The notes under the pieces: model-generated
The model's input: the letters and a program-made list of their open reading frames with translations, nothing else
The model's database searches: none
What the model was told of the DNA's origin: nothing
Made by a program: the position numbers and the translations under genes
Assembly (NCBI RefSeq): GCF_949628265.1
Contig: NC_088789.1
Coordinates: forward strand, 35,209,883-35,273,882
DNA: 64,000 nucleotides
From: Cloeon dipterum
Lineage: Eukaryota; Arthropoda; Insecta; Ephemeroptera; Baetidae
Direction of reading: 5' to 3'
Shown here: positions 24,820-32,139 of the stretch, piece after piece
Layout: each line of letters begins with the position of its first letter
Position numbering within the stretch: position 1 is the first letter of the stretch

Positions 24820-27800
24820 ATGGAAACAGAAAAAAATTACTTCGCTTACTGTTTGGAAACGAACACCAAAATAAATTACTTCATTGTGCCGTCAAAATTT
24901 TTGAAACCAAGACCAAATGCAAGACATTCGAATCCGGGATTGGCCTGGGACTCTCTTGGACAAGACTTCTGGGGAGCTGTGTTGCAATCAGCATGGCACT
25001 GGTCTTTGGAGGTGGACCCTGACGATGGGTCCTTCCTGGATCAAGAACCCAAGGATGACAAGGATTTCGAGCACTTGCTGAGCGAGGCAGAGTACAAAGA
25101 TTGTCTCGTTCTTGCCACTGCTTCCTCCGTGCAAGAACTGCAACACTTCGTTCAATCCTGCAACATCAAAGTTCCAAAGAAATACAAACGTTTGGATGAG
25201 TCTGTCGCTTCAGGAAGTCAACAACAAGACAAGCCAGAGCAGGTACATCAAGAGTCTAATTTCTTTAAACCAATTTTATCAAAGGTTGATTTGATCTTGA
25301 AACCTCGGACAGTGATAAAAAATGACTTTCTACGACAATGTTTCAGGAAAAGAAGCCATTCAGGAGTAGTGAATCCAATCAGCAAGAGAGTAGCAAAGAT
25401 AATTCAATGTTCTCACAAAGCTTGGAGTTGAAATCTGTTTCTGCAAGAGCATCTCCTTCCGATACACCACCAGAGGACACACAAATTGAAATGGAAGAAC
25501 CGATCGAGTCGCATGATGATAGAGGTAATTATCTTTCATGAGTGTTAACTACAAAAGATTTCATCCACCGTCACTTAGAGTTGTGAGGAATTAATAGCTA
25601 TTCATTTATTCAAGGCGCTGCACACATTCGACCTCAAGGGAAAGCAAATCTAGGATTTTTCGAATCTGAAATAGATGAACGTGTCGTCACCAGACAAAAT
25701 GCGGACAAGTAATTTTCCAGAGTTTAGATCTCATTATAAGAAACTAAATTATTGCTCTTTCAAGTGTTTGTGTCCTGGTCATTCACTACGAGTTCAAAAA
25801 CAATCCAGATTATTTCCGAAAGGGAGACGCCTGTGACGTAGAACGCCTAAATAGTATCTTCGGGAAAAACCGGAACTGCAATTTCCGTAACTTTCGGTCA
25901 CCGAACAAGAAAACTTTGCTCAAACTTCTCGGCGATCAAGAGAAGCTTTTGCAGTTTTTCAGCTCACAAGGTATCACGTTCAATAAATTAATATTCATCT
26001 AAACATAAATTGTCCCTTTTTTATTCAGATGACGTGCCCTCAGTTTTCGTGCTTTTCATTCTCTCTCATGGGACTGAAAACGGAACGATATTGACCGACC
26101 ACCTGAAAAGGAATTCTGATGAATACGAATGTTTCACAACGGATGAGATCCTTGACTCCTTACAGAAGCTAAAGAGATTCGACAAATGTCTGAAAATCGT
26201 GAATTTTGGGGTAAGCTTCGACCACACAAACTTAAAACTATAAATAAAAAGGAAAAGTACGAGATGAATAGTTATATAACAAAATTTTCCGTGTTTCAGC
26301 CATGTCGGGGTTCGTTGGAGGATTCTAAATACGACACAAGGAATTCGTACAAAAACTATGAAAACAGGAATGCATGTAGAATCACCAATCGCGCAGGAAT
26401 GCAAAACTATGTCATGTTCTATTCGACAGTTGAGAGTAATTTTTTAACGGCAAAGATTACAACTGCCTAACTTCAATTAATTTATAAAACTTTCAGCGAC
26501 AATGGCAAACACTGATGAAAAAGGTTCGTGGTTTGTCCGTAATATCTGCATGTGTCTTAACAATGCCGATGATGAGCCATTGTTGAAATTCTTTACCATT
26601 GTTCAGAATCGAATGCATCATTCGTCACGCAGTTTAATGAACTTTGCAAAAAACACTCCACTGGGACAGACGCCAGAACTCAAAATGTTTACACAGGACA
26701 GAAAATTTGTAATCTCAAAGTGAGTATCGCATAAAATGGATCCCGACAAAAATTATTCAAGAATACTTATCATTAACTATTGAATCCAGAAGACAGTAAG
26801 ACAGAGTGTAACAACCGATTTTTTTCAGGGCTAATATCACAGAAAAACCTATTTCAAACACTGATGCGTCTAGTGGCAAGAGCAAAGTTTTAAATGAACT
26901 ACATTCCGGATATTTCGCCTGGAAATCGGACGAAGGACAAGACATCAGGGGCCGTAGAGGTTTCATTTTATCCGTGACTCATTGCAAACAAGTACAAGAT
27001 ATGAAAAGAGTTCTTCAGAACCTAGACTTCGAAATCACAGACTGGACACTTAGCAGTGCGTCCATGAATTTCTATTTTAAGATTGGCAAGTATAAAGTCA
27101 AAGGAATTTTAAATTTGGTTTATAATTATATGGTTTTGCAGTGTCCGAGTTGGAACCAGACGTGGGCTGCATTTTGACCTGCATTTTTGGCCCTGTGTGT
27201 GAAAATGAACACAACGAGGTTTGCGTGCGCGTGCAAAAGGGCCAAGAGATTCCGATCACTGACATCCTGCACAGCTTGGTTGGTCCTAAAAACGATAAAT
27301 TTATAGGGAAGCCAAAACTTCTGTTTGTTGTTAACGTGGAAGCACCTCAAACGGACAGTGTAAGATCTCTACTACAGCTGAAGAAATTTTTAGATGAAAC
27401 GGATTTTTTATTTAGATCTCATTGCACACGAAAAATTTACAAGTCTCTGCAACCAACCACAGTGGCTGGCTAATTTTGATTTTAAAATACGATGGTACGT
27501 TAAAAAAGGTTTTATTAAGTTGCGCATATTTAGAAAATATATTTTCACAGATGCACTACAAAAGTTTAATGAAAAGTTGGAAAAAATCGGTGAGAAAAGC
27601 CTACAAGAACTTCTGGAGAATCTGATAACTTGTGAGTCAAATAGAGAAGATGTGGTTCTTCTCAATTCCACTTTGCAGTATCTCATCAAATTTCCTAATT
27701 GGCCAAGAGCATTTGTCAAACCCCATTTGAAAATTAAAATGAAAAAAATACCCCGTGAACAAATTTATAAAAATTCATCGGAACCACTTATAGAGGAAAA

Positions 27801-30800: not shown

Positions 30801-32139
30801 AAACAATGATAAATGTACCGCACTGCATTTGGCCGCTGAAAAGAACTCAAATGCAGAGGTGATCCAAATACTACTCGAAAACGGCGCCGACGTTCAATCA
30901 CAAAATATTTATGGAAATACAGCCCTTCATCAAACTGCCGGGTTGAATAGAAACCCAGAAATAGTGAAAATTTTACTAGAAAAAGGCGCCAAAGTTAACG
31001 TACAAAACCATAATAAATGGACTGCTCTGCATTACACGGTCGATTCATTTGACCCAGCTACAGCAGTAGTGCAAGAGCTGCTCGAAAACGGTATCGACGT
31101 TGATTTACAAGATAAGGATGGATTCACAGCACTTCACCTAGCTGCTAGGAGGAATAAGAACTCAATAATAGTGAAAATGTTGCTAGAAAATGGTGCCAAA
31201 ATAAACGCCGAAAGCAATGATAAATGTACCGCACTGCATTTGGCCGCTAGATATAACCCAGCTGGAGAAATTGTCCAAAAGCTGCTTGAAAATGGCGCCG
31301 ACGTTGATTCGCTAAATCAACAAGGAGAATCAGCCCTTCACTTAGCTGCTTGGTATAATACAAGCCCTGAAATAGTGAACCTTTTGCTTGAACAAGGTGC
31401 CGAAGTAAACGCACAAGACAATTATAAATGGACCGCACTGCATTTCGCTGCTAGATTTAACCCAGCTTCGGAAATCGTCCAAACTTTGATCGAAAACGGC
31501 TCCGACGTTGATTCACACACTAGTGGAGGAAAAGCAGCCCTTCACCTAGCTGCTCAGCATAATATAAACCCTGAAATAGTGAAAATATTGCTTGAAAATG
31601 GTTCTGATGTTAACGCACAAGAAAATGACGGTTGGACAGCACTGCATTTCGCTGTCAGATTCAACCAAGCTCCAGAAATTGTACAAATGCTGATTCAACA
31701 CGGCGCCGACGTTCGTTTACAAAATAAAGATGGATACACAGCCTTTTACCTAGCTGCTGGGTACAACACAAACCCTGAAATAGTGAAAATCATACTTGAA
31801 AATGGTGCCAACTTAAATGCAGGAGACAATGGTGAATGGACCGCACTACTGCATTACGCTGCTACACACAACCGACGTCCTGAAGTGGTCCAAATGCTGC
31901 TTGATAAGGGCGCCTTGATAAATGAAAAAAATAGTAAAGGAGAGACTGCTTTATTTCTCGCGGCTAAGCACAATTGTGAGGAAAAAGTGGTTCAAATTCT
32001 GCTCGACAATGGAGCCGCAGTAAACAAAAAGATATTGAATGACAAAGAATGCGCTGCTGTATTACGTCAAATGAAAATCAACGGGGAAATTTTAAAAAAA
32101 CTAACCAAAAACGATCGAAAAGACTGTTGTTTAATTTGA
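24820..32139 (+). CDS. Caspase / pseudocaspase / NACHT / ankyrin protein, paralogue 1 (2194 aa, 11 coding exons)
   Basis: Exons: 24820-25242, 25347-25524, 25615-25708, 25765-25970, 26029-26210, 26300-26435, 26497-26719, 26829-27085, 27142-27359, 27416-27494, 27551-32139; all phases join. Domains: 1-141, unrecognised; about 142-230, acidic linker; about 232-485, caspase with VFVLFILSHG (His314), KIVNFGPCRG (Cys363) and p10 YSTVETTMANTDEKGSWF; about 519-720, second caspase fold with IFG for SHG and NVEA for ACRG, so no catalytic residues; about 810-1120, NACHT with SVAGAGKST (Lys827) and VFLDGFDE (Asp898); about 1173-2170, about 29 ankyrin repeats; C-terminus DCCLI, a CaaX form. Intron 8 appears to start with GC (G|GCAAGT). 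Known families: C14 caspases and NACHT STAND NTPases, which oligomerise on ligand binding. A self-contained cell-death or immune sensor is inferred; the ligand and substrate are unknown. It could instead signal without proteolysis. Confidence 0.9.
29071..32030 (+). repeat. Ankyrin-coding array, about 29 units with a two-repeat period
   Basis: Units of about 34 codons carry the ankyrin signature TALHLAA...NPEIVKILLE.GA. From the fifth unit on, two kinds tend to alternate: one ending GAKVNAQ with NPEIVK, the other ending GADVDxQ with xEIVQ. The effective period is about 204 bp. Units 10 and 20 share the rare DSFDPATAVV segment, and units 13-14 resemble 19-20, which points to block duplication or gene conversion inside the array. 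Confidence 0.85.

Follow-up and report, generated by a model that had tools for sequence, protein, structure and literature searches.

In the animal NLR inflammasomes and in the Apaf-1 apoptosome, an oligomerising STAND NTPase gathers separate caspases via death folds. In this work, we analyzed a 64,000-nucleotide stretch of the Cloeon dipterum genome (Insecta; Ephemeroptera; contig NC_088789.1, positions 35,209,883 to 35,273,882), hereafter the window, and specifically a gene located at positions 24820-32139 of its forward strand (gene A), which carries a caspase domain, a NACHT NTPase and an ankyrin array on a single chain, together with its intact paralogue (gene B, 41459-47134, forward strand). 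Whereas inflammasomes and the apoptosome use a separate caspase and leucine-rich repeats (LRR) or WD40 repeats, here the caspase is fused to the NTPase, the repeats are ankyrins and no death fold was found by Pfam. In other words, where the sensor of the known animal systems meets its protease through death-fold adaptors, both would be joined here in one chain in a bacteria-like manner, with a dead-looking caspase partner in addition.

The nearest described layout is that of the bacterial metacaspase-NACHT-WD40 proteins, called widely distributed in bacteria, in which a caspase-superfamily protease, a NACHT NTPase and repeats also share one chain (PMC3501461). They have a metacaspase and WD40 repeats, whereas the proteins studied here have an animal-type caspase, ankyrins and a second, inactive caspase domain that the relevant passages of that source do not mention (PMC3501461). 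In animals, a figure legend on NLR architectures of the sponge Dysidea avara names CASc, and on the strength of that legend CASc-NACHT-LRR proteins may exist; the same source presents NACHT-Ank as common to early-diverging animals (PMC12909245). The sponge NLRs are LRR receptors, in contrast with the ankyrin-bearing chains described here. Fungal NLRs, NACHT-ANK forms included, share the effector-NACHT-repeat layout; their effectors include CHAT and an S8 protease, not tied to the ANK forms in the passages concerned, and their repeats are highly alike and change via unequal crossing-over, but an animal-type caspase effector is not mentioned in those passages (PMC4986451, PMC9815663). The animal TRADD-N expansions are likewise death-related and count STAND NTPases, ankyrins or a caspase among their variable C-terminal domains, yet they are built on death-like and TRADD-N units, and the sections describing them mention no caspase-NACHT-ankyrin chain (PMC8195603). 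A cnidarian survey reports 35 non-LRR domains associated with NACHT, caspase not being among those that its relevant passage names (PMC8260672), and a metazoan survey states in the part concerned that arthropod NLRs lack an N-terminal effector domain and that arthropods may have no inflammasomes (PMC11508797).

Regarding the pairing of an active with an inactive caspase, Acropora caspase-X also combines an inactive caspase-like and an active-looking domain on one chain, and its comparison with c-FLIP/caspase-8 was already proposed (PMC4715348). In caspase-X, however, the inactive domain comes first and has lost both His and Cys, whereas here it comes second; neither NACHT nor ankyrin was returned by a word search of that main text. 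c-FLIP(L) and procaspase-8 form an active heterodimer without cleavage, that is, an active caspase beside a dead homologue as proposed here, although they are separate DED proteins, while in our case both lie on one chain in which no DED was found (PMC4819448). Inactive caspase homologues are also described in Diptera, and one title cited in that source refers to a caspase-like decoy of Aedes that enhances a caspase paralogous to it (PMC3141678). A caspase-NACHT-ankyrin animal protein was not found in the portions of the open-licence PMC literature covered, and an earlier precedent elsewhere is quite possible. Taken together, the fusion of a caspase-superfamily domain to NACHT outside animals and the inactive/active caspase pair in corals are known; an animal protein that combines both with ankyrins appears to be a new variation on them.

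Results

Gene models and selection

Splicing of 11 exons joins gene A into a single uninterrupted frame of 2194 residues with its sole stop at the end, the same length as in an original prediction made from this DNA alone, which had claimed a one-frame product. The introns measure 56-109 base pairs (bp), nine of them being GT-AG and one GC-AG (intron 8, 27086-27141), and the motifs FILSHG, PCRG, GSWF, AGAGKST and FLDGFDE are all found in the product. Exon 1 (24820-25242) provides the start codon and an open frame for an N-terminal stretch (residues 1-141) assigned to no family, and exons 2 (25347-25524) and 3 (25615-25708) supply the linker that leads up to the caspase domain, itself encoded by exons 4-7 (25765-25970, 26029-26210, 26300-26435 and 26497-26719). 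Exons 8-10 (26829-27085, 27142-27359 and 27416-27494) carry most of a second caspase-like domain (26929-27624, residues ~515-690), completed by the start of exon 11 (27551-32139), which then encodes the NACHT core (28018-28452, residues 822-966) and the ankyrin array (29074-32052) and ends in the stop codon.

Gene B was located by tblastn of a gene A protein model against the window. Its 12 exons splice into 1582 residues with one terminal stop and with the same domain order: caspase domain (exons 5-8, 42606-43586), most of the second caspase-like domain (exons 9-11, 43700-44368, continuing into exon 12), and NACHT plus ankyrins (exon 12, 44430-47134). Apart from one extra linker exon, the intron phases are as in gene A, and seven of the eleven exons common to both genes have equal length.

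Alternative donors for exon 8 of gene A were dropped after comparison with the paralogue, leaving the GC-AG donor and an exon of 257 bp in both genes; a model with another exon 8 donor and without exon 10 contained seven stops and was rejected. When exon 8 was wrongly delimited, making the second caspase-like stretch ten residues short, that stretch gave no C14 match, although caspases made up four of its five matches in the PDB; the final model brings back the C14 match, which is further support for the GC-AG donor. Exon identities between both genes (0.74-0.88, exon 11 being compared over its first part only) overlap those of nine intron pairs aligned with gaps (0.71-0.89), and when one intron pair was shuffled 50 times, the same gapped aligner gave a mean identity of 0.72 even so; hence conservation alone is no proof of each splice site. 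A clearer sign than identity is that exons 4, 5, 7 and 8 align gap-free, whereas all nine introns need gaps.

Over 1554 aligned codons, the two genes share 70% identity; their synonymous divergence (dS) is 0.467 and their overall ratio of nonsynonymous to synonymous divergence (dN/dS) 0.40. Across the eleven rows computed, the whole included, dN/dS ranged from 0.27 to 0.64, its maximum being the linker after the caspase; within the ankyrin array, the repeats paired for this calculation may not be true counterparts. Of five stretches, the caspase showed the lowest value (0.27), followed by the second caspase-like domain (0.34), the NACHT region (0.39), residues 1148-1308, which comprise the end of the NACHT region and the first ankyrins (0.39), and the exon-1 stretch (0.48); a ratio of 1 or more was reached in 11 of 1000 codon bootstraps for the last and in none of 1000 for each of the other four. 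A and B agree at the catalytic dyad (His and Cys), at the RxGD Arg and at the Lys and Asp of the Walker motifs. Judging by these sequence comparisons, both copies are under purifying selection. Two intact copies at a dS of 0.47, with dN/dS below 1 in all five stretches, indicate that the caspase-NACHT-ankyrin fusion is a maintained gene, and a paralogue with matching phases and domain order, together with dN/dS of 0.27-0.48, makes a chance or mis-joined model very unlikely. From its sequence, gene A is thus a real, duplicated gene under selection with an unusual domain combination.

The two caspase domains

Profile searches of the 2194-residue product, as proposed with the original prediction, placed Peptidase_C14, NACHT and Ank above their Pfam cut-offs, and this, together with an intact paralogue of the same order, bears out the claim that all three lie on one chain. 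Peptidase_C14 covers residues 233-472 of the gene A product (E-value (E) 4e-17, 63.1 bits, against a cut-off of 21.4) and scores nearly the same in gene B (E 8.4e-17, 62.1 bits). The catalytic dyad is kept in both genes (His314 and Cys363 in A, His329 and Cys378 in B), as is the Arg of the RxGD motif (Arg250 and Arg265, respectively), and the p10 motif GSWF is present in A. When the caspase domain was searched as a profile against the PDB, all 16 sequences with E of 0.1 or below were animal caspases, the best having E 0.00034. Horizontal transfer from bacteria is not favoured, given that these matches are all animal and that the gene has ten introns. No match to the gene A caspase was obtained in PADLOC, and no caspase relatives were found in a viral contig collection searched with two short peptide patterns, a search that does not exclude relatives.

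The region between this caspase and NACHT (residues ~515-690 of gene A) contains GFILSV, a run ending in LDFEIT, CILTCIFG, GKPKLLFVVN and SGWLILILKYDDALQKFNEKL. C14 was the best of its three Pfam matches up to E 10 in gene A (E 0.0049, 17.0 bits) and the sole Pfam match up to E 1 in gene B (E 0.002, 18.3 bits). Against the PDB, caspases accounted for seven of the eight matches at E of 10 or below with the gene A domain alone (best E 0.58), and for 12 of 13 with a two-row profile of A and B (best E 0.32). The best match of the latter was a chain named Caspase (3sip), which we take to be drICE, and the alignment to its caspase p20 reaches through the KPKL strand. The position of the catalytic Cys is occupied by Val. 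On the basis of its sequence, this second domain is a probable pseudocaspase.

NACHT region and N-terminal stretch

NACHT passes its Pfam cut-off (26.7 bits) in both genes, with 35.4 bits and E 1.2e-8 in A and 28.8 bits and E 1.3e-6 in B. GKST and FLDGFDE are present in both, the Walker A Lys being Lys827 in A and Lys843 in B and the Walker B Asp of A being Asp898. In PADLOC, the NACHT stretch of gene A matched mad8 (E 0.00044) and PprDinG (E 0.028), and NCBIfam gave EruA, a NACHT antiphage protein (E 4.4e-9, 35 bits against a cut-off of 1000), besides two weaker NTPase matches. Relatives of this stretch were not found in viral or genome contig collections (microbial/viral), each searched with two short peptide patterns, which does not exclude them.

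The 141 residues of exon 1 are 77% identical between A and B. No Pfam family scored above cut-off on this stretch in either gene, NCBIfam gave no family up to E 1, and a PDB search found no relative (best E 1.2). An AlphaFold model built from a two-row alignment was of low confidence (mean predicted local distance difference test score, pLDDT, 51.1) and showed a mixed alpha/beta fold, weak evidence against a death fold, which would be all-helical. Within the first 232 residues of gene A, Pfam gave two matches up to E 10, both far under cut-off and neither of them a death fold, and exon 1 of gene B gave no death-fold family (CARD, PYD, DED or Death) up to E 1. The statement in the original prediction that no death fold is recognised is supported at the sensitivity of Pfam.

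The ankyrin array

In Pfam, 27 stretches of gene A and eight of gene B pass the Ank cut-off. A pattern count of regular repeats of ~34 residues gave 25 in A and seven in B; about four degenerate ones, recognised by eye, precede those of A, in keeping with the ~29 repeats predicted earlier. Ankyrin families top the list in both genes, and no LRR family was among 25 of the 29 families for A, nor among the 12 for B. Four non-ankyrin families also passed cut-offs on the gene A array (Gal-bind_lectin, Orn_Arg_deC_N, DUF6375 and ROQ_II), none of which appeared for gene B up to E 1; going by the sequence, they are taken as summed weak matches to a long repeat, that is, as artefacts.

The array of gene A has a two-repeat period of ~204 bp, its self-likeness being maximal at a shift of 204 bp, and contains an 86-bp stretch duplicated exactly at a distance of 612 bp, both of which point to exchange within the array. 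Rate ratios were calculated for the gene A repeats of exactly 34 residues (11 odd and nine even; one repeat of 33 residues, three of 35 and the last repeat were dropped). They amounted to 1.79 in odd and 0.87 in even repeats for hairpin-tip positions, to 0.54 and 1.90 for helix-turn positions, and to 0.42 and 0.32 for core positions.

Discussion

The sequences and their likeness to known systems suggest, with a probability of roughly 0.6, that A and B encode death-fold-free caspase-NLRs whose single protease is controlled both by oligomerisation of NACHT and by an inbuilt pseudocaspase resembling c-FLIP. Both products would then act in the cytosol as NLR-like sensors that carry their effector protease themselves: a novel N-terminal stretch and a linker are followed by the caspase with its His and Cys, the inactive caspase-like domain, NACHT and the ankyrin array. 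The array would bind a ligand or keep NACHT closed; nucleotide exchange would let the NACHT domains oligomerise, and this in turn would bring the caspase domains together and activate them without CARD, DED or PYD adaptors. The inactive domain might pair with the active caspase within or between chains, like c-FLIP(L) with caspase-8, and so set the threshold or the specificity. This would result in local proteolysis, and the infected or damaged cell would probably die. As to the interpretation proposed originally, its architecture stands and its contrast with animal inflammasomes is consistent with a survey that, in the part concerned, denies arthropod NLRs an N-terminal effector domain (PMC11508797), whereas its implied novelty was overstated, as metacaspase-NACHT-WD40 proteins are described in passages on bacteria (PMC3501461) and CASc in a legend on sponge NLRs (PMC12909245); it also overlooked that there is a paralogue and a further caspase-like domain, and these change the likely mechanism.

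Several observations weigh against this reading. Both genes have GPCRG in the active site instead of QACxG, the Gln of QACRG being replaced by Gly, and where SWR/SYR has its p10 Arg the alignments show Thr, Asn or a gap. These two residues, like the Arg of RxGD, contact the P1 Asp of caspase substrates, and their alteration may, as far as the sequence tells, result in an unusual specificity or a weak protease. The second domain stays under the C14 cut-off (21.4 bits) in both genes, its E-values in the PDB (0.32 and 0.58) are not significant, and hhalign gave no match between it and the first caspase domain, both profiles having two rows; the place of its catalytic His, which depends on the gaps chosen, is taken by His590 in A and by Gln605 in B. 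The NACHT search of the PDB gave no significant match, the best being NLRP3 with E 0.33, and an AlphaFold model of the start of exon 11, also from a two-row alignment, reached a pLDDT of only 37.7. In favour of the reading, hairpin-tip and helix-turn positions of the ankyrins vary more than core positions, which hints, at the level of sequence, at a variable binding surface, although the positions were grouped by hand after inspection and the repeats share ancestry and are not independent. Besides, expression, protein and proteolytic activity are all predicted, and the immune role is proposed by analogy.

The altered substrate pocket is also what argues for a silent scaffold, in which the first caspase domain would have no useful activity either and the protein, with two pseudocaspases on a NACHT-ankyrin hub, would signal through binding. 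In both genes the SWR Arg lacks an aligned counterpart and the Gln is Gly, and similarity to every solved caspase is weak, even the best E being 0.00034; but both copies keep His and Cys while the neighbouring domain lost its Cys, and none of the five stretches has a lower dN/dS than the caspase. We consider this explanation unlikely, albeit one to be taken seriously. It is a shade less probable that the single-chain receptor works as proposed but in a non-immune role, e.g. in developmental, germ-line or non-apoptotic caspase signalling. Nothing in the window links the genes to infection, two neighbours being genes for a gelsolin-repeat protein and for EF-Ts, whereas the duplicate copy, the difference between 25 and seven regular repeats and the exchange within the array look like those of a receptor under changing pressure.

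Still less likely, in our view, is that alternative splicing or separate promoters yield a caspase by itself and a NACHT-ankyrin protein, with the fusion as a minor form. If the intron that follows the last caspase exon (26719/26720 in A, 43586/43587 in B) were retained, translation would immediately reach a TGA and leave a caspase-only form, but a GTGAGT donor at that phase does so automatically and this may mean nothing; that intron contains one ATTAAA in gene B and no AATAAA in either gene, and the frame is continuous over all exons in both paralogues at a dS of 0.47. That the genes are artefacts, either unrelated exons joined over a pseudogene or a single locus assembled twice, seems very improbable: although decayed relics of caspase exons are present close by on the opposite strand, both frames are intact, all stretches computed have a dN/dS below 1 (0.27-0.64), and a dS of 0.47 is too diverged for alleles or an assembly duplicate.

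If the death-fold-free caspase-NLR reading is correct, these genes would offer a simple one-protein system to test caspase switching by NTPase oligomerisation and a pseudocaspase partner, and would go against the claim, as worded in the part of the survey concerned, that effector-less NLRs leave arthropods perhaps without inflammasomes (PMC11508797). It is tempting to speculate further, at slightly less than even odds, that they represent a self-contained animal inflammasome, with repeats, NACHT, caspase and c-FLIP-like pseudocaspase on one chain and the adaptor layer omitted, in a duplicated and diversifying family of an arthropod lineage said to lack effector-bearing NLRs.

Genomic surroundings

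Two decayed caspase p10 exon relics were found at 32915-32998 and 47809-47892 (reverse strand), inverted and ~0.7-0.8 kb downstream of A and B, respectively, which suggests older family members or a duplicated block. Between both genes lies a 5S rRNA (35136-35254, reverse strand; Rfam RF00001, 107.1 bits), the only Rfam match in the window at the gathering threshold. This 5S rRNA has an insect-like look, which, like the short introns of the genes, would be in keeping with an arthropod. A segmental duplication (35498-36976 and 57981-59444) is 90.8% identical over 1508 aligned positions and thus closer than genes A and B to each other.

Upstream of gene A, a gene for EF-Ts with a mitochondrial N-terminal family occupies 21221-22827 (reverse strand; all three pieces tested score). 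Its 5' region is partly duplicated, 22317-22996 resembling 57637-58284 (73.0%) and 22720-22996 resembling 35543-35817 (73.3%). A gelsolin/villin-like gene is located at ~12462-16695 (reverse strand, extent by eye), Gelsolin repeats scoring in Pfam in both pieces tested. No tRNA was found in the window. Much of its first 11 kb (2372-11281) is occupied by a family of dispersed direct and inverted repeats that are ~66-82% alike.

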